The position numbers and the translations under genes are program-made. A stretch of 64,000 nucleotides of DNA from Desulfovibrio aminophilus (GTDB lineage: Bacteria; Desulfobacterota; Desulfovibrionia; Desulfovibrionales; Desulfovibrionaceae). Below, one piece after another: positions 44,783 through 56,712 of the stretch. A model generated the notes under the pieces. It saw nothing but the letters and a program-made list of their open reading frames with translations. It did not search any database and was not told where the DNA came from. Position 1 is the first letter of the stretch, and each line of letters starts with the position of its first letter. Location: positions 1 through 64,000 of the forward strand of contig NZ_JAMHGA010000002.1 of NCBI RefSeq assembly GCF_023660105.1, in the 5' to 3' direction.

Positions 44783-46692
44783 GTGAGTCTCAGGCTGAAG
44801 CTGGTGTCCACCTGGAGCAGCGAATATTCCTGCTGCGCGCCCAGCAGGTTCTGCCCGATGAGTTCCAGGAGCAGGCCGTCGCGGACTTTCCAGGAGGCAT
44901 GGGCGTCCATGGTGAAGTAGCCCGGGATGCGTTCCTCGGTGGGGCTGTCCAGGTAGGCCAGGGAAAAATCCAAGCCGATGTCCCGCGTGAGACGGCTCAT
45001 GGCCATGAGCTTGGCTTCCGCCACGGTGTTCTGTTCGATCTCCGGATACTCGTGGCCGTCCACGGAGATCCGGTCGAAATCCTGGCGGATCAGGCTCAAG
45101 GAGGGGCGCAGGGTGAGCCACTCGCGGGCCTGCCAGTCCAGCAGCATCTCGGCGCCGTAGGCGTTGCCGTTCAGGGTGTTGGCCACGGTGCCGGTGTGCG
45201 CGGCCCTGTCCAGCCGGATGCCGTTGAGCCGGTCGTAGTCGTTGGCGAACAGGGAGACGTCCAGGCTCAGCTCTCGCGAGAGGTGGCGGCGGTAGCCGGC
45301 TTCGTAGGCGATCAGCTCCTCGTTGGACAGGCCGTTGGGGGCGTGGATGGTGTACTCGTCCGGGCCCTGACGGATTTTGTAGGTGCCTTCCCGCTGCCAG
45401 CGGTTCGCCGCGCGCACGGCCCGCGAGACCGCGAGCCAGAATTCCTGGCGGTCCAGGGTGTGCAGGAGGCGGGCCGTGGGCTGGATTTCCAGCGCGCCCC
45501 GGCCCTGGTAGTCGAACTTGGAGCCGAGGATGAGGAAGAGGCGGTCCGGGACGAGGCGGATCTTGTCCTGGACGAAGGCGCTCGACTCCAGGGTGTAGGA
45601 GTTCATCCGCTCCATGCTCCAGTCCGGGCCGTTCTCGAAGCTGTCCCAGTAGTAGCGGGCCCCCAGGCCCCAGCTCAGGCGGTGGACGCCGATCTCCTCC
45701 ATGGCGTCCTGGAATTCGGCGTCCCAGACGTTCTCGATCCCGTCGCGGCCATCGCTGTTCTGCCATTCCCGCATGTAGGAGGTGCGCAGGCGCATGCCCG
45801 AGTCCAGACCGGTGGCCCGGTCCCACGTGAACTGCCAGTATCCGCCGGCGGTGTCCCTCGGGCCCGGGGCCATGATCTGGGGCATGGCCGCGCCGCCCTC
45901 GTCGAGTTGGGAGCGGACGATTTCGCCCTGCAGGGATATCTCGTCGGTGAAGGCGTTGCGCCAGTCCGCCCGGAAGCCGCTCCGGCCCTGCCGCCAGTTG
46001 CGCGAACTGCTCGTGTGGTGGCCCGGGTCCTCGATCCGAAGCCCGTCCTTGTAGCTGGCCTTGGCGTAGGCCCGGTAGTGCAGGTCGTCCCCGACGGCCG
46101 CGCCCAGGCGCAGGCTCTGCTCGATGCCGTCCGTGCCCGCCAGGGTGACGCTTTGCGCTCCCTGGGTCTCGGACGCGGGCTTGGTGATGATGTTGATGAC
46201 TCCGGTGAAGGAGTCCGAGCCCCAGAGGCTGGTCCAGACGCCCCGGATCACTTCGATGCGTTTGACCGTCTCCAGGGGGATGTTCTGGTTGCTCCAGTCC
46301 ACTTCGGTCCGTGTCGGCGAGGTGATCGGACGGCCGTCCACGAGCACGAGGTGCTTGTTGTTGAGCATGCTGTTGAAGCCCCTGACGCCCACGCTCCACT
46401 TGTCCGTGTCGGTGCGGGCCACATGCACGCCGGGCGCGAGCTTGAGGGCTTCGGGAATGTTCGTGGCCCCGGAACGCCGGATGTCCTCCTCGGTGATGAC
46501 CGTGACGGCCCCGGCCACCTGGGACAGGGGTTCGTTGCGCTTGGAGGCCGTGACCACCCTCGCGTCCAGGATGTCTTCCATCTCCACGCCGGAGAGGCGC
46601 GGGTCCGCGTCCTGCGCCCACGCCGAGGCGGCCCAAAGGCAGAGCAGGAGAGCGGCGGAGAGGACGCCCGGGAGTCCCGGACGAAAGCGCAT
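44770..46692 (-). CDS. TonB-dependent outer-membrane receptor
   Basis: 640 aa with signal peptide (LPGVLSAALLLCLWAASAWA). The plug domain is present (VVTASKRNEPLSQVAGA, TNIPEALKLAPGVHV, VGVRGFNSMLNNKHLVLVDG) and the barrel ends in a C-terminal aromatic (RLTWDF). These receptors import siderophores, haem, cobalamin, sugars or other ligands. The substrate cannot be told. The start overlaps the regulator stop as ATGA, tying it to a two-component system in a single transcript; this recalls ligand-sensing operons in which the receptor feeds the sensor (inference). Confidence 0.9.
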   Translation of the reverse strand: MRFRPGLPGVLSAALLLCLWAASAWAQDADPRLSGVEMEDILDARVVTASKRNEPLSQVAGAVTVITEEDIRRSGATNIPEALKLAPGVHVARTDTDKWSVGVRGFNSMLNNKHLVLVDGRPITSPTRTEVDWSNQNIPLETVKRIEVIRGVWTSLWGSDSFTGVINIITKPASETQGAQSVTLAGTDGIEQSLRLGAAVGDDLHYRAYAKASYKDGLRIEDPGHHTSSSRNWRQGRSGFRADWRNAFTDEISLQGEIVRSQLDEGGAAMPQIMAPGPRDTAGGYWQFTWDRATGLDSGMRLRTSYMREWQNSDGRDGIENVWDAEFQDAMEEIGVHRLSWGLGARYYWDSFENGPDWSMERMNSYTLESSAFVQDKIRLVPDRLFLILGSKFDYQGRGALEIQPTARLLHTLDRQEFWLAVSRAVRAANRWQREGTYKIRQGPDEYTIHAPNGLSNEELIAYEAGYRRHLSRELSLDVSLFANDYDRLNGIRLDRAAHTGTVANTLNGNAYGAEMLLDWQAREWLTLRPSLSLIRQDFDRISVDGHEYPEIEQNTVAEAKLMAMSRLTRDIGLDFSLAYLDSPTEERIPGYFTMDAHASWKVRDGLLLELIGQNLLGAQQEYSLLQVDTSFSLRLTWDF

Positions 46693-47399
46693 CAGGCGTT
46701 CCTGGCAGGAGCCGCCGCCATGAGATAGCCGCGTCCCCGGATGGTCTTGATGCTGGCCTTGCCGTCCAGTTTCTTGCGCAGATTGCTCATGTGCACGTTG
46801 AGCACGTAGTCGTCGAAGTCCAGCCCCTTGCCCAGGGCCTGCTCCATGAGCGTTTCCCGCTCCACGATGCCGCCCAGGTTCCGTCCGAGCATCTCGACGA
46901 TGCTGAACTCCGTGGCCGTGAGGTGGATCGGGCGTTGGCCGATGCTGACCATGCGCGAGGCCGGGTCAATGAGCACCTCGCCGACGCGGATGGCCGCGCC
47001 ACCGGGAGAGGCCGGGTGCGCGCCGCCCGCCAGGGGCCCGGAGGTCCGGCGCAGGACGGCCCGCATCCGGGCCAGCAGCTCGCGCAGGGGGAATGGTTTG
47101 GGGATGTAGTCGTCCGCGCCCTTCTCCAGGCCGACGACGCGATCCACCTCCTCGCCCCGGCCGGTGAGCATGATGATCGGCACGCCCGAGTCCTTGCGCA
47201 GCCGCCCGAGGACCTCGAACCCGCTGGTGTCCGGGAGCATGATGTCCAGGATGACCAGGTCGTAGGGGGTTTCCGCGAACCGGCGCAGGCCTTCGCCGGC
47301 CGAGTGCGCGGCGTGGACCGTGATGCCTTCGCCCCCGAGATACTTGGAGAGCAGTTCGCCCAGTTCCTGGTCGTCATCAATAAGCAATGTTGTCGTCAT
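46692..47399 (-). CDS. OmpR/PhoB-family response regulator
   Basis: 235 aa. Receiver residues: LIDDDQ acidic pocket, Asp52 in LVILDIML, LTGRG and the Lys in YIPKPFPLREL. A winged-helix DNA-binding domain follows (IHLTATEFSIVEMLGRNLGG, LNVHMSNLRKKLDGKASIKT). It is the first gene of the operon running RR, TonB receptor, YfiR-like protein, histidine kinase, and is presumably activated by that kinase. It is divergent from the flagellin gene. Confidence 0.92.
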   Translation of the reverse strand: MTTTLLIDDDQELGELLSKYLGGEGITVHAAHSAGEGLRRFAETPYDLVILDIMLPDTSGFEVLGRLRKDSGVPIIMLTGRGEEVDRVVGLEKGADDYIPKPFPLRELLARMRAVLRRTSGPLAGGAHPASPGGAAIRVGEVLIDPASRMVSIGQRPIHLTATEFSIVEMLGRNLGGIVERETLMEQALGKGLDFDDYVLNVHMSNLRKKLDGKASIKTIRGRGYLMAAAPARNA

Positions 47400-47658
47400 G
47401 TGGGCACCATTTTTTGTTTCAAAATAAATCTTCAGGATGAGAAGCGGAAGAATTTTAATATAAAGAAACATTAAAATGACAATTGAAACATAAGTTCTCT
47501 TCTTGAAAATCAATAATAATCGAAATATAAATTGATAGGGAAAAAAATTCCCATCGTAAACGCTGGTGCTGTGTTCCTCCGTATATCCATTCAGAAGACG
47601 TTCCGTACTCATCGTGAGCGGGACAATGCATGGATGCACAACTATTCAAGGAGGAACC
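47400..47658. other. AT-rich divergent promoter region
   Basis: Visibly AT-rich compared with the surroundings. It contains GGGAA(AAAAA)TTCCC near 47538-47553, but no clear sigma-54 or FliA box for flagellin. AAGGAGG ahead of the flagellin start is obvious. Confidence 0.4.
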
Positions 47659-48513
47659 ATGTCGCTCGTCATCAACAACAACCTCATGGCGAATTCAGCG
47701 GCCCGGCATCTGACCGACGCCTACAGCAAGTTGTCTTCGTCCACTGAAAAGCTGTCCTCGGGACTGCGGATCAACTCCTCGGCCGACGACGCCGCGGGCA
47801 TGGCCGTCAGCGAGCTCATGAAGTCCGACGTGGCCACGCTGAACCAGGGCGTGCGCAACGCCAACGACGGCATCTCCATGATCCAGACCGCCGACGGCGC
47901 GCTCTCGGTCATCGACGAGAAGCTCATCCGCATGAAGGAACTGGCGGAGCAGGCCTCCACCGGCACCTACACCTCGACCCAGCGCCTGATCATCGACTCC
48001 GAGTACCAGGCCATGGCCTCGGAGATCACGCGAATCGCCAACGCCACGGACTTCAACGGCATCTACCTGCTCAACGGCAACCTCTCCGGCGACGGCCTGA
48101 CCGTCCACTTCGGCACGGGCAACGATTCGTCCGAGGACAAGTACAGCGTGGTCATCGGCAACAGCACCGCCGGAGCCCTGGGCGTGGGCCATGCCGCCAC
48201 GGGGGCGGGCGCCAGCGTCTCCACCCAGGCCCTGGCCCAGGCCGCCCTGGACGCCCTGGACAAGGCCGTGGTCAGCAAGGACAACATCCGCGCCAACCTC
48301 GGCGCCTTGGAAAACCGGCTGAACGCCACCATCTCCAACCTCGAGGTCCAGTCCGAGAACCTGTCGGCCGCCCAGTCCCAGATCGCGGATGTGGACGTGG
48401 CCACGGAGATGACCAACTACACGAAGCAGCAGATCATCACCCAGTCCGCGGTGGCCATGCTCTCGCAGGCCAACTCCCTGCCCCAGATGGCGCTCTCGCT
48501 CATCCAGGGCTAG
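47659..48513 (+). CDS. fliC: Flagellin
   Basis: 284 aa, a short flagellin with D0 and D1 only (SLVINNNLMANSAARHLTDA at the start, QQIITQSAVAMLSQANSLPQ at the end); the variable surface domain is nearly missing. AAGGAGGA just ahead of the ATG gives a strong SD. It forms the filament. The hook-filament genes follow 870 nt later, after a terminator and an AT-rich region, so it is transcribed separately. The region around Thr/Ser/Asn residues may be glycosylated (inference). Confidence 0.95.
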   Translation: MSLVINNNLMANSAARHLTDAYSKLSSSTEKLSSGLRINSSADDAAGMAVSELMKSDVATLNQGVRNANDGISMIQTADGALSVIDEKLIRMKELAEQASTGTYTSTQRLIIDSEYQAMASEITRIANATDFNGIYLLNGNLSGDGLTVHFGTGNDSSEDKYSVVIGNSTAGALGVGHAATGAGASVSTQALAQAALDALDKAVVSKDNIRANLGALENRLNATISNLEVQSENLSAAQSQIADVDVATEMTNYTKQQIITQSAVAMLSQANSLPQMALSLIQG

Positions 48514-48539
48514 TAGCGGCCGTCTGCCTCCTCCAATCC

Positions 48540-48570
48540 AAGGCCCGGGGAAATCCGGGCCTTCTTTTTT
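48540..48570 (+). terminator. Flagellin terminator
   Basis: AAGGCCCGG (48540-48548) pairs with CCGGGCCTT (48555-48563), loop GGAAAT, followed by CTTTTTT. Confidence 0.9.
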
Positions 48571-48840
48571 CTCCTGTCGTTTTTTTGGGGCCGAACGTTT
48601 CACCCGGCGGCGGGGAATTTTTTGCCTTTTCCTTCTCCTCTCTTGTTTTCCTGGGAATTGTCCCATGATTTTAGGCTGTTCATTCCTTGCGAAAGATTCG
48701 CGATCTTTATTTTTCTATGGTTGTTTTGCTGTTTTATTGAGTTTTAGCTGAATAATTATTTGTGTTCATTAATGATATTATATTGAATATAAATAATTGG
48801 AGGAATTTGAATTGCAGATGGTTGGTAACGAGGAAATGAA
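48571..48840 (+). other. AT-rich region ahead of the sigma factor gene
   Basis: Low-GC stretch that continues into the sigma factor gene. A short perfect stem AAAGAT-TCGCG-ATCTTT at 48692-48708 is followed by ATTTTTC and may terminate or bind a regulator. The SD for the next gene is GAGGA at 48830-48834. No gene is seen. Confidence 0.4.
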
Positions 48841-49383
48841 ATGCATACCGAGCTTAGATGTACATACGACATATTTTTTGAAAATTACTCACGATTCATA
48901 ATGTCGTGTATAAAAAATTTCATCCGTATGAATAACATTCCGATAAATCATGAAGATGTAGATGATATATATCAAAATATAGCGATAAAAATCATCAAGA
49001 ACAAATACATTGAAAAGTACGACAATGAAAAAAGCTCCATGTCGACGTGGATAGGCACGATTTCTCGGACAACAGCGATCGATTACTACAGAATGAAGAG
49101 GCATCACTACAATGAAACGGATATTTCTGAAGCGGATTCGTGTGTCGGACAAGAGGATGTCCAGCCCGGACTGCAGCTGCCCGGCGGCGTGCTGAGCAGG
49201 CGGCAGGCGCAGGTCATCTCCCTGTTCTTTCAGGAGGGACTGGAGGCCGGGGAGATCGCCGGACGGCTCGGCATCTCTCCGCAAACCGTCCGCAGCATCA
49301 AGTTTCAGGCCCTGGAGAAGTTGCGCAGGCACTATGGCGCGGTCTCGGAGGAAGAGGTCGCGCAAAGGAGGAAGGCCCCATGA
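48841..49383 (+). CDS. ECF-like RNA polymerase sigma factor, base-composition chimera
   Basis: 180 aa. Region 2 spans about residues 15-95 (FENYSRFIMSCIKNFIRMNN, VDDIYQNIAIKIIKNKYIEK, SSMSTWIGTISRTTAIDYYR), region 4 about 118-168 (LSRRQAQVISLFFQEGLEAG, GRLGISPQTVRSIKFQALEK). Codons up to about 49135 are AT-rich; after that the gene is strongly GC-rich like its neighbours. This sharp switch suggests recombination that joined an imported region 2 to a resident region 4. The stop overlaps the flgD start (ATGA), so it is in the hook/filament operon and may direct transcription of flagellar late genes. Its target promoter is unknown. Confidence 0.75.
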   Translation: MHTELRCTYDIFFENYSRFIMSCIKNFIRMNNIPINHEDVDDIYQNIAIKIIKNKYIEKYDNEKSSMSTWIGTISRTTAIDYYRMKRHHYNETDISEADSCVGQEDVQPGLQLPGGVLSRRQAQVISLFFQEGLEAGEIAGRLGISPQTVRSIKFQALEKLRRHYGAVSEEEVAQRRKAP

Positions 49384-50075
49384 GCACCACCGAGGCGACC
49401 AGCTATTACAGCTCTCTGCTTTCGTCATCGTCCACGACCACGGCGGCCGCGACGACGGAAAGCTCCTCGTCCACCAGCAGCCTGACGTCGGAGGATTTTC
49501 TGACGCTGCTGCTGGCCGAGATCGAGAACCAGGACCCCACCGAACCCTTGGACAACGCCGAGATGGTCAGCCAGCTCACCGGCTATTCCCAGCTGGACCA
49601 GCTCACCGCCATCAACGAGAAGCTCGGCGACCTGACCGACAGCCTGGGCTCGGTCACGGCCTCCAACAGCCTGAGCTACATCGGCAAGACCGTCGAGGCC
49701 GAGGGTTCGACCATCAGCAAGTCGGAGGAGGAGATCTCCCCCCTGGGCTTCACCCTGGGGGACGACGCCTCGTCCGTGACGGTCAACGTCTACAACTCCT
49801 CCGGCGACATCGTGGCCACCGACACCTTCTCGAACCTGGAGGAGGGCGGCCACACCTACCAGTGGGACGGCCTGGACGCCGACGGCGACGCCGCGGCCGA
49901 CGGCATCTATTCCGTGATCATCACCGCCCAGGGCGGCACCGGGGCCGACGTGGACGTGACCACCACGGCCAGCGGCGTGGTCACCGGCCTGTCCTCGGAC
50001 TCCGACGGGGTCACCCTCACCCTGGACGACGGGCGGACCGTGAAGCTGACGGACGTCATTTCGGTCACGGCCTGA
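49380..50075 (+). CDS. flgD: Flagellar hook capping protein FlgD
   Basis: 231 aa, start overlapping the sigma-factor stop (ATGA). The Ser/Thr-rich N-terminus leads to the conserved motif LTSEDFLTLLLAEIENQDPT and EPLDNAEMVSQLTGYSQLDQ; the C-terminal FlgD Ig-like/Tudor region follows (TYQWDGLDADGDAAADGIYS). It caps the growing hook during assembly. Length fits the family. The Asp-rich C-terminus is normal. Confidence 0.94.
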   Translation: MSTTEATSYYSSLLSSSSTTTAAATTESSSSTSSLTSEDFLTLLLAEIENQDPTEPLDNAEMVSQLTGYSQLDQLTAINEKLGDLTDSLGSVTASNSLSYIGKTVEAEGSTISKSEEEISPLGFTLGDDASSVTVNVYNSSGDIVATDTFSNLEEGGHTYQWDGLDADGDAAADGIYSVIITAQGGTGADVDVTTTASGVVTGLSSDSDGVTLTLDDGRTVKLTDVISVTA

Positions 50076-50120
50076 ACGGATCGCGCACCATCAACCGTAT
50101 CTTTCAGAAGGAGAAGGGAC

Positions 50121-53738: not shown

Positions 53739-54932
53739 ATGCGCGTCAGCACGTCCCAGATCTTTTCCGCGAGTCTCAGCCAGATCAACTCCTCGCTCAA
53801 CGAGGTGGTGCGCCTGAACCAGGTCAATTCCTCGCAGAAGCGGATCAACGCGCCCTCGGACGACCCCTCGGGCATGGCCCGGGTCGTGAACTTGCGTTCC
53901 TACGACAGCGCACTCGCGCGCTACGCGGATACCTGCTCCACGGCGGATTCCTATCTGAGCCTGGCCGACACGCAGCTCGCAAAGGCCAGCGAGAAGATCA
54001 CCTCCGCCCTGGAGCAGGTGGAGCAGGCTTCCACCGGAACCTACACCACCACCCAGATGCGGCAGATGAGCACGGAGTTGTCCGGCTACCTGGACGCGCT
54101 GCTCTCCATCGCCAACAGCAAGATGGGCGACGATTACGTCTTCGGCGGCGACGAACTCGGTTCCTCGGCCTTCGAGGCGGGGCTCGGCGTGACCGTCACC
54201 GGCGAGGACATGGCCGCCTCGGACGTGGCCTCGGTCACGGGCGAGGCCGACACGACCATCGCCGTGCGCTTCACGTCCGACGGCACGGTGGGCGCGGACT
54301 CCCTGACCTACGAATACTCGATCGACGGCGGCGAGACCTGGACCGGCGGCACGCTGGCCGCGAGTTCCTCCTCCCTGACCATCGGGGACTGCCAGGTGAC
54401 CCTCGCCAGCGGCGCCTCGCTGATCGCCTCGGACGGGGAGGGCGGCGGCAGCTCTTTCCTGGTCCGCGAGGCGATTTTCTATACGGGCGGCGACAAGGCC
54501 ATGTCGGTGGACATCTCCCAGGGCGTGGCCGTGGACATGACCAGCGTGGGCAGCGGCATCTTCGGAGGCGTGGACCCGGACACGGGGCAGGCCTTTTCCG
54601 GGGCCAATCTCTTCGAGAACATCTGCGAATGCATCGCCTACATGGATCAGGGCGACTCCGACAAGGTTGCTGAATATCTGGAGAAGATCAGCGCGGCCCA
54701 GGAACGCCTGGAGACCGGCGCGGCGGGCGTGGGCTCGCGGGAGACCAAGATCGACGCCGTGAACAGTTCCATCACCCAGATCCGCTCCGTGACGAGTTCG
54801 AGCATCAGCGGCGAGGAGGACGCGGACCTCACCAAGGTGCTCGTGGATTTGAAACAGGCCAACTATGTTTACGAGTCCGTGCTTTCGTCCACCTCGAACA
54901 TCATGCAGATGAGCCTGCTCGATTACCTGTAG
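53739..54932 (+). CDS. flgL: Flagellar hook-associated protein 3 FlgL
   Basis: 397 aa. N-terminal flagellin-like helix (MRVSTSQIFSASLSQINSSL ... RINAPSDDPSGMARVVNLRS) and C-terminal helix (VLVDLKQANYVYESVLSSTS) flank an insertion domain. It forms the second junction zone between hook and filament. It is 18 nt after flgK. Confidence 0.93.
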   Translation: MRVSTSQIFSASLSQINSSLNEVVRLNQVNSSQKRINAPSDDPSGMARVVNLRSYDSALARYADTCSTADSYLSLADTQLAKASEKITSALEQVEQASTGTYTTTQMRQMSTELSGYLDALLSIANSKMGDDYVFGGDELGSSAFEAGLGVTVTGEDMAASDVASVTGEADTTIAVRFTSDGTVGADSLTYEYSIDGGETWTGGTLAASSSSLTIGDCQVTLASGASLIASDGEGGGSSFLVREAIFYTGGDKAMSVDISQGVAVDMTSVGSGIFGGVDPDTGQAFSGANLFENICECIAYMDQGDSDKVAEYLEKISAAQERLETGAAGVGSRETKIDAVNSSITQIRSVTSSSISGEEDADLTKVLVDLKQANYVYESVLSSTSNIMQMSLLDYL

Positions 54933-54942
54933 GAGGCGAGCC

Positions 54943-56712
54943 ATGTCGGACTCTTCTTCCGTTTCGAGCACCACCTCGACGTACACGAACACGAGCTCCG
55001 GCCGGATCACTTTCAGCGGCCTGGGCAACGGCACGGACTTCACGGAGATCATCGACGCCACCATCGAGGCCGAGAGCTACCGTCTGGATGAGTACAAGAC
55101 GGAGAAGGCCGAGCAGGAGAAGATCATCTCGGCCCTGGAGACGCTGTCCGACGAGATGGCTTCCCTGAACAGCACCCTGGAGGATATGAACGGCCTCGAC
55201 TCGTTTCTGGCCATGGACGCCAGCTCTTCGTCCACCGCTGTGGGCGCGGAAGTCAGCGGCGAGGCCGTCGAGGGAACGCACACCGTGGTGGTGGAGCAGC
55301 TCGCCCAGAGCGACATCTGGGCCAACACGGGCTATTCCTTCTCCTCCGAGGACGCGCTGGTGGCCTCTTCGGCCACGACCCTCGCCTTCAGCTACGCCGG
55401 GTCGAGCATCACCTTGGACGTGGCGGCGGGGACGACCATCGACGGGCTGGTGGACGCGATCAACAGTTCCTCGCTCTGCAAGGGCAAGGTGCAGGCCAGC
55501 CTGATCTATGACGGCGCATCGTATTATTTCCTCCTCTCCGGCGAGGACACCGGCTCGGCCAACACGATCTCCATTGTAGATGGCGGGACCCTGGCGGGCT
55601 TCGATTCGAGCAACTTCACCAACACCCAGACCGCCCAGGATTCCCTGATCAGGGTGGACGGCTTCCCGCCGGGCGCGGACCAGTGGATCGCGCGCTCCAC
55701 CAACACCGTGGACGACGTGCTCACCGGCGTGACCCTGAACCTCAAGGCGGTCACCGGCGACGAGGGCATGCAGGTGACCGTGGCCTATGACACGGACGCC
55801 ATCGTCGAGAAGGTCGAGAGCTTCGTGAAGGAGGTCAACCAGATCCTCTACGACATCCAGACGCTGACCGGGCGGCTGGACACGGACTATGAGAACCCGG
55901 ACGCCGTGAGCACGGACGCCAGCGACGATTCGGAAGACGACGATGACGACACGATCACGCTCAAGAGCTCCACGCTGGACATCATGTACGGCAACATCAA
56001 GAGCATCCTGTCCTCCCTGGGGCTCGGCTTCGCCCGCTACGACTCCGACACGGGAACGGGCGACACGTACGGCTCGCTCTCGCAGATCGGCATCAGCACG
56101 GATTCGGAAGAGGGATCGGACAGTTTCGGACAGCTCGTGCTGGACACTTCGGTGCTGGAGGAGGCCCTGGCCAAGGACCCCCGCGCGGTGGCCGAACTGT
56201 TCGCCGCCGACGGCGAACTGGAGTCCGACAACTCCGCGCTTCAGCCGCTCTCGATCATTTCGGGCGTGACTCCGGCCGGGGATCACGAGGTGGCGTACAC
56301 CGTGGAGAACGGCGTGCTGGTGTCGGCCACCATCGACGGCCAGGCGGCCCAGGTGGAGGGCTGGACCATCACGGGCACCGGCTCCCTGTCTTCCGGCCTG
56401 TACATCCAGGTGGCGGACCAGAGCGACGGCGACCATTCCGGCACGGTGCGCGTGAAGCAGGGCAAGATCGGCCAGCTTTCCGACGCGTTGAGCGCAATGA
56501 CGGCCGAGGAGACGGGCACCCTCGCCATCATGGTCAACAACTACGAGAAGGGCGTGGAGGACCTCGGCGACCGGATCGACAGCGAGTCGGCCCGGCTGGA
56601 CGCCCTGGAGACCTACCTGAGCGAGAAGTACTCCCGCCTGGACGAGACGCTTTCGTATTACACCAATCTGGAAAGCACGCTCAGCAGCCTGATTTCCTCG
56701 TTGAGCGATTGA
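54943..56712 (+). CDS. fliD: Flagellar filament cap protein FliD
   Basis: 589 aa. Features: Ser/Thr-rich N-terminus, ITFSGLGNGTDFTEIIDATI followed by a coiled coil, D2-D3 domains with FliD motifs (VEQLAQSDIW, SSLLKGKV-like region), an unusual acidic stretch (DASDDSEDDDDDTITLKS), and the C-terminal coiled coil with YLSEKYSRLDETLSYYTNLE. It caps the filament and folds flagellin at the tip. It is the last gene of the operon, before a terminator. Confidence 0.92.
   Translation: MSDSSSVSSTTSTYTNTSSGRITFSGLGNGTDFTEIIDATIEAESYRLDEYKTEKAEQEKIISALETLSDEMASLNSTLEDMNGLDSFLAMDASSSSTAVGAEVSGEAVEGTHTVVVEQLAQSDIWANTGYSFSSEDALVASSATTLAFSYAGSSITLDVAAGTTIDGLVDAINSSSLCKGKVQASLIYDGASYYFLLSGEDTGSANTISIVDGGTLAGFDSSNFTNTQTAQDSLIRVDGFPPGADQWIARSTNTVDDVLTGVTLNLKAVTGDEGMQVTVAYDTDAIVEKVESFVKEVNQILYDIQTLTGRLDTDYENPDAVSTDASDDSEDDDDDTITLKSSTLDIMYGNIKSILSSLGLGFARYDSDTGTGDTYGSLSQIGISTDSEEGSDSFGQLVLDTSVLEEALAKDPRAVAELFAADGELESDNSALQPLSIISGVTPAGDHEVAYTVENGVLVSATIDGQAAQVEGWTITGTGSLSSGLYIQVADQSDGDHSGTVRVKQGKIGQLSDALSAMTAEETGTLAIMVNNYEKGVEDLGDRIDSESARLDALETYLSEKYSRLDETLSYYTNLESTLSSLISSLSD

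Follow-up and report, generated by a model that had tools for sequence, protein, structure and literature searches.

A probable flagellum-dedicated ECF-type sigma factor at the head of an accessory hook-filament cassette in Desulfovibrio aminophilus and its relatives

The FliA/FlgM checkpoint relies on a late sigma factor that turns on flagellin after the hook genes. An ECF sigma factor has also been described inside a flagellar gene cluster, namely RpoE6 of Azospirillum brasilense, which is encoded with its adjoining anti-sigma factor, Asf6, in a flgD, flgE, flgK, flgL, fliC2, fliD, fliS cluster and controls the flagellin of that cluster (PMC12826043). Our literature search covered open-licence papers, and none of the matches listed was a paper on the Desulfovibrionaceae sigma factor considered here. 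This sigma factor is encoded in a 64,000-nucleotide stretch of Desulfovibrio aminophilus DNA (positions 1 to 64,000 of contig NZ_JAMHGA010000002.1), referred to below as the window. A preliminary description of its gene, made from the sequence, had proposed a dedicated late-flagellar sigma factor that was horizontally remodelled. In our analysis the comparative promoter evidence gives support to the first part, with the adjacent flagellin as the putative target, while the second part did not hold.

The window gene encodes a two-domain ECF-type sigma factor and not FliA. Its frame is free of stop codons, region 2 (PF04542) covers residues 14-87 and region 4 (PF04545) residues 117-162, and the sigma70-ECF model TIGR02937 is passed with 68.1 bits (cut-off 42.9). 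With regions 2 and 4 alone, a linker between them and a size of about 20 kDa, the protein has the make-up by which ECF (group IV) sigma factors are recognized. The FliA model, TIGR02479, gave 25.3 and 30.8 bits, below its cut-off of 189.6 and with the match confined to region 4, and the true FliA of the genome lies elsewhere (G000:C38). FliA identity was therefore rejected. The window sigma factor further differs from the FliA/FlgM system in having no region 3 and in the promoter with which it is associated. The predicted structure (mean pLDDT 85.6, pTM 0.51) contains two confident helical domains, and its low-confidence stretch corresponds to linker residues 96-107. A Foldseek search with this model returned eight matches at E<=0.001, all of them ECF sigma factors; owing to the uncertain placement of the two domains, whole-model TM-scores reached no more than 0.34-0.42, which is low. 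When domains were compared separately, region 2 of sigmaE (4lup) gave a Z of 9.4 (rmsd 2.3, 80 aligned) and region 4 of sigmaE (2h27) a Z of 7.9 (rmsd 1.7, 59 aligned). As FliA (1rp3), with a Z of 8.8, is tied with the sigmaE domains, fold does not tell ECF from FliA.

The likeness to RpoE6 (PMC12826043) is one of setting, as both proteins are ECF sigma factors within a hook-filament cluster. They belong, however, to different subfamilies: the sigma factor encoded on Azospirillum plasmid NZ_CP032342.1, taken as RpoE6 by its position, scores 221.8 bits against PRK05602 (cut-off 208), while the window sigma factor scores 30.4, and a profile comparison gave 19% identity. Orthology with RpoE6 was rejected. 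According to the same source, rpoE6 is the penultimate gene in its cluster and the Azospirillum promoter elements are CGCCAG and CGTGAG; the window sigma gene is the first of its operon, stands behind a sigma54-type element with no anti-sigma gene found, and is associated with a different promoter motif. For the proteins whose genes directly follow that of the RpoE6-position sigma factor, taken from two Azospirillum plasmids, Pfam gave no match. As that sigma factor falls in another ECF subfamily and is followed by a protein without a Pfam match, the resemblance looks like a parallel capture rather than common descent. A tblastn search of plasmids with a class D sigma factor (classes are defined below) returned 43 records, none above 60% identity, and no Azospirillum was found among the 40 matches listed.

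The plus-strand order of the genes in the window is flaA, sigma, flgD, flgE, flgK, flgL and fliD (Table 1). The sigma gene overlaps flgD via ATGA, as seen both in the window and in L028, the two loci inspected, and, as stated earlier, it heads the flgD-flgE-flgK-flgL-fliD operon. On the other strand, upstream of flaA, a response-regulator ORF (46692-47639) is listed from a GTG at 47639 and in this form extends across the flaA promoter; the likelier start codon is an ATG at 47399.

Table 1 Features of the cassette in the window, with their positions, strands and the evidence on which each is based.
Feature	Position	Strand	Evidence
Palindrome GGGAAAAAAATTCCC, adjoining the -35 box of flaA and similar to sites of the FlbD/DVU1063 type	47538-47552	.	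Palindrome scan
ECF-like flaA promoter: -35 TAAACG, 17-nt spacer, -10 CGTATA	47557-47585	+	Motif kept across class A
flaA, flagellin, 284 aa	47659-48513	+	PF00669 and PF00700; reading frame
Imperfect palindrome GGGAATTTTTTGCC; may serve the sigma operon as an upstream activator site	48613-48626	.	Palindrome scan
AT-rich block over leader, promoter element and region-2 half of sigma gene	48650-49135	+	GC windows; class A bins
Second palindrome, candidate upstream activator site of sigma operon	48653-48664	.	Palindrome scan
sigma54-type -24/-12 element AGGAATTTGAATTGCA (GG-N10-GC)	48801-48816	+	Regex; kept in class A
Sigma factor of ECF type (180 aa), limited to regions 2 and 4	48841-49383	+	ORF, Pfam, TIGR02937, structure model, Foldseek
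flgD, hook capping protein	49380-50075	+	PF03963, PF13860, PF13861
flgE, encoding the hook protein; three FlgE-like genes found in the genome	50121-51671	+	Family scan
flgK; one of two in the genome	51699-53720	+	Name from position and comparison
flgL	53739-54932	+	ORF; name from position and tblastn synteny
fliD	54943-56712	+	ORF; name from position and tblastn synteny

Across the family, the sigma factor was found in 89 of 288 genomes and 23 of 44 genera (E <= 1e-10); several of the matches were reported with one or two internal stop codons. The part of these matches for which flanks were fetched gave, once identical protein cores had been removed (L146 among them), a set of 78 loci that were classed by gene order alone. 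Class A (32 loci) has the order flaA-sigma-flgD, as in the window; in class B (19) the sigma gene is separated from flgD by a gap of less than 1 kb; in class C (16) it lies directly upstream of flaA; in class D (7) a convergent fliD is the nearest gene downstream; and 4 loci fall under none of these. Class A sigma factors are monophyletic (100/99). It should be considered with every 32/32 count below that class A spans four genera related by descent, and such counts are not 32 independent events. Genus g8 includes genomes with both class A and class B (zf-HC2) cassettes: G233 (L098, L107), G239 (L090, L111) and G242 (L103, L144).

All 14 class A genomes checked, that of D. aminophilus included, gave at least three FlgE and at least two FlgK matches; G001, a genome of the same genus without the sigma gene, has 2 FlgE and 1 FlgK. 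The FlgE proteins of class A cassettes also form a monophyletic clade of their own (100/99), separate from the FlgE copies that are unlinked to the sigma gene. Given these extra copies and this separate clade, the sigma factor goes with an accessory, or spare, set of hook-filament genes.

The flaA promoter was compared across class A, where TRAACG-N16/17-CGTA is present at -98 to -110 of the flaA ATG in 32/32 loci, with few conserved positions outside the two boxes. As the motif was learned from these promoters and its regex fixes most box positions, this count is descriptive, and the outside test is provided by a panel of 30 genomes without the sigma gene, two of which (G026 and G027) have degenerate or distant sigma matches only. 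Flagellin matches were found in 28 of them, and 34 flagellin upstreams, representing a part of the flagellins there, were taken from 30 returned loci plus L133. None of these 34 contained the motif; the sigma54 regex fit 14 of them and the FliA regex 8; mononucleotide shuffles, which keep base composition only, fit at rates of 8.8% (sigma54), 0.1% (ECF-like) and 0.4% (FliA). Of 33 class A flagellin upstreams, a single one lacks the motif, and it precedes an additional copy of the flagellin gene in L089. Two (L141 and L118) also fit the loose sigma54 regex, which is about the shuffle rate, and none fit the FliA regex. For class A, the motif thus tracks the presence of the sigma factor, as is expected of a sigma factor dedicated to flagellin. 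Upstreams of class C flagellins showed no firm two-box motif by eye, and neither the sigma54 nor the FliA regex fit any of 14.

Within the D. aminophilus genome, the three flagellins have three promoter types, ECF-like at flaA, FliA-like at the C1 flagellin (TAAAGTTTTCTCGGGACAGGCCGAT at -121) and sigma54-like at the C17 flagellin (TGGCACCTTCATTGCT at -60), and this bacterium would most likely run them from three kinds of promoters. The flagellin adjoining flgE in G001 carries TGGCACTTTCATTGCT. DVU1441 of Desulfovibrio vulgaris presumably encodes a flagellin as well. It is, like DVU1445-1443, a target of DVU1063 and has a sigma54 promoter (PMC4641369), whereas the window flagellin seems to have an ECF-like promoter instead. 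Palindromes similar to the one abutting the flaA -35 (Table 1) lie within 32 nt 5' of the flagellin -35 in 21/32 class A loci (1.5% in mononucleotide shuffles). The flaA leader contains TGCATGGATGCA at 47628-47639, just 5' of the ribosome site and with its GGA in a possible hairpin loop, in which we see a resemblance to a CsrA-type site; close variants, e.g. GGCAAGGAAGCC, precede flagellins in genomes without the sigma gene. A search of Rfam over 47300-49500 gave nothing at gathering score.

Unusually, the regulon seems to comprise one gene alone, as the only other exact match to the ECF-like motif in the genome, at C19:59721 (L154:7722), has an 18-nt spacer and overlaps the 3' end of an unrelated membrane-protein-like ORF. 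This match is probably due to chance. Scanning with a PWM (threshold 13 in the window and 15 in the class A loci) yielded 36 sites in the 32 class A loci, 32 of them being the flaA training sites. One sequence in the flgD-flgE gap, TGAACGGATCGCGCACCATCAACCGTATC at 50073-50101, is one mismatch from the flagellin motif and falls under the PWM threshold, and the scan listed no counterpart at this position in the rest of class A. Four genus g8 loci have a flagellin-type motif within the terminal part of flgK, at 313-384 nt 5' of flgL (L089:11713, L107:11527, L111:12012 and L144:3073); these sites follow conserved codons and may be a coding coincidence. With these sites being all that was found, a wider ECF-like regulon was rejected.

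The sigma operon itself is preceded by a sigma54-type element, and its transcription would be expected to start near 48827. Such an element lies within 220 nt 5' of the sigma core in 32/32 class A loci, in 2/19 of class B, 0/16 of class C, 4/7 of class D and 0/4 of the others. A loose palindrome is found within 230 nt 5' of the element in 26/32 class A loci (12.7% in mononucleotide shuffles), and in 21/32 it starts 184-188 nt before it. Flagellar operons of the D. vulgaris sigma54/DVU1063 regulon combine sigma54 promoters with GGCAxxxxTGCC sites, the DVU1063 motif (PMC3333781; PMC4641369), and the window sigma operon has a sigma54-type element and candidate sites of the second kind. Promoters had been suggested earlier for two stretches, and this was partly right: 47400-47658 contains the ECF-like flagellin promoter and 48571-48840 the sigma54-type element.

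Compared with solved structures, the family profile matches RpoE-ChrR (PDB 2q1z) best by sequence; ChrR is a soluble zinc-binding anti-sigma factor. In relatives of the window sigma factor, a zf-HC2 protein is encoded next to the sigma gene or in the hook operon, while no zf-HC2 anti-sigma gene was recognized in any of the 32 class A cassettes. The class B gap before flgD usually encodes a protein of about 100 aa; five examples were scanned, of which four score as zf-HC2. A search profile was built from seven such proteins, and its matches thus include its own members. On the same strand and within 900 bp of the sigma gene, this profile recovered a zf-HC2 protein in 17/19 class B and 5/7 class D loci, and in 0/32 class A, 0/16 class C and 0/4 other loci. 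In several loci of classes C, D and other, namely L034, L035, L036, L074, L091 and L104, the gene for this protein stands apart from the sigma gene; in the first three it is just upstream of flgD, and this placement suggests that the anti-sigma factor may be part of the hook operon. When 14 class A genomes were searched for PF13490 (E <= 0.01), none was found in 9, including D. aminophilus, and one in each of the remaining 5. The class A lineage may have lost the zf-HC2 protein rather than never having had it.

The GC content of the sigma gene is 33% in region 2 and 66% in region 4. By 200-nt windows it is 28-33% at about 48650-49100 and 62-66% by 49100-49350, and the break, at about 49135-49160 (residues 99-107), falls in the inter-domain linker and coincides with the low-confidence stretch of the model. 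For background, we used 231 crudely called ORFs from a 336 kb sample of the genome, in which the first-minus-second-half GC difference averages -0.7 (sd 4.3, range -20.0 to +21.3). The difference of -28.9 in the sigma gene is more extreme than in all of these; the lowest among them is the response-regulator ORF mentioned above, apparently because its listed start is too far upstream. In the AT-rich half, codon choice gives an observed GC of 33% versus the 50% expected from the cassette's own flagellar codon usage (z -15.8), and F, Y, M, I, N and K make up 49% of region 2 over class A versus 21% of region 4. Codon choice and amino-acid make-up each contribute to the AT-richness of the first half. 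The sharp change within the gene, as it had been noticed at the outset, is therefore confirmed by GC windows, codon usage and the comparison with other ORFs.

The same break is found throughout class A, where region 2 sits 15-33 GC points under region 4 in 32/32 loci, at a locus GC of 39-67% and in four genera. Outside class A, the difference runs from -4 to +20 in class C, with no such trend, from -20 to +7 in class B and from -9 to +5 in class D. When GC was taken in 60-nt bins over positions -180 to +180 relative to the core start, each bin lay more than 10 points under locus GC in 26 to 32 of the 32 class A loci; the block begins about 180 nt before the sigma core, takes in the promoter element and fades at the inter-domain linker. 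Synonymous codons are AT-shifted as well, by a mean of 10 points. This shift is small in loci with flagellar genes below 45% GC (z -1.3 to -4.7), where amino-acid make-up carries more, and in classes B and D, where many loci have an anti-sigma gene close by, the shift goes the same way but is weaker.

Several origins of this break can be considered. One, along the lines of the preliminary description, is a recent chimera of a foreign AT-rich region 2 joined to a native region 4, which agrees with a sharp intragenic break that is extreme for the genome and that lies in the linker, where a fusion could be tolerated. Nonetheless, the break is common to all 32 class A loci over their wide range of GC, these form one clade, the genus relative G002 has it too, and the window region 2 aligns with the region 2 of relatives that are not AT-rich. 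The orthologue search for a non-chimeric form, which had been proposed as a check, with a break common to all orthologues as the refuting outcome, thus gave this outcome within the clade, with a weaker or absent break outside it. With region 2 conserved and both domains confidently modelled besides, a recent horizontal chimera was rejected, and we regard it as very improbable. As the break is common to the whole of class A and this class is a single clade, the AT-rich front half is, by this comparison, an old trait inherited within the clade and not a recent splice. It is also very unlikely that the sigma factor is decaying and nonfunctional, with its region 2 drifting to AT as selection was relaxed after the loss of the anti-sigma factor. 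The absence of zf-HC2 from the class A cassettes and of a PF13490 match from the genome at the threshold used would agree with such decay, but there is no in-frame stop, mean pairwise identity across the 32 loci is 51% in region 2 (58% in region 4), near the 54% of class C region 2, both domains are modelled at high confidence and both promoter elements are kept in 32/32 loci. A further possibility, which is compatible with an active sigma factor and which we hold as tentative and rather doubtful, is that the AT-rich block is a cis element that would replace the missing anti-sigma factor in keeping the operon off, either by letting the DNA loop between activator site and promoter or by binding a nucleoid protein with a silencing function. 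The extent of the block, which in almost every one of the 32 loci reaches from the leader over the promoter element into region 2, the AT-shift of synonymous codons and the regular spacing of the palindrome to the sigma54-type element in 21/32 loci point in this direction, although the synonymous shift is small in the low-GC loci, and classes B and D show a weaker one of the same sign even with an anti-sigma gene nearby in many cases.

The reading we consider likely is that of a flagellum-dedicated ECF-type sigma factor that heads an accessory hook-filament cassette and reads the promoter of the neighbouring flagellin. Sigma54 would drive the sigma-flgD-flgE-flgK-flgL-fliD operon through the sigma54-type element, a step that is proposed because of this element and of the loose palindromes resembling GGCAxxxxTGCC, and a flagellar enhancer-binding protein of the FlbD/DVU1063 type would probably activate it. 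The ATGA overlap would couple translation of the sigma factor and FlgD. Made alongside new hook proteins, the sigma factor would then direct RNA polymerase to the TRAACG-N16/17-CGTA promoter of flaA, and the filament protein of the cassette would be made only where the matching hook proteins are made. That the sigma factor reads the flaA promoter we infer from the conservation of this promoter and its tracking of the sigma gene; the activity of the sigma54-type element, the identity of its activator and the timing of the cascade are proposed from sequence. Transcription of flaA by FliA (sigma28), with the ECF-type sigma factor having another target or none, is unlikely. A FliA is indeed present in the genome, where another flagellin has a FliA-type promoter, and the TAAA of the -35 box is common to FliA promoters. 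However, the -10 box is CGTATA and not GCCGATA, the two boxes stand further apart, 16/32 loci have G as the second base of the -35 box, the FliA regex fits none of the class A flagellin upstreams and the motif tracks the ECF-type sigma factor.

A broader reading, which is speculative and which we do not hold to be probable, is that Desulfovibrionaceae possess an ECF-built flagellar checkpoint apart from FliA/FlgM, in which a sigma factor for the flagellin is paired, in several lineages, with a small soluble zf-HC2 anti-sigma factor that possibly senses hook completion in the manner of FlgM, e.g. by export. Class A would have discarded the anti-sigma factor, abutted the sigma gene to flgD and placed it under sigma54 control, with the AT-rich block as a compensating cis control. 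If this is true, the cassette would be a transcriptionally insulated plug-in hook-filament module.

After RpoE6, this family would add another case, apparently of separate origin, in which an accessory hook-filament cluster has captured an ECF sigma factor, and the sister genome without the sigma gene, G001, provides a natural contrast to it. Multiple flagellins and additional hook genes are common among bacteria, and the way in which a filament is matched to its hook is poorly known. A sigma factor encoded in the hook operon that reads solely the matching flagellin would, if true, be a simple answer to the matching of filament to hook.
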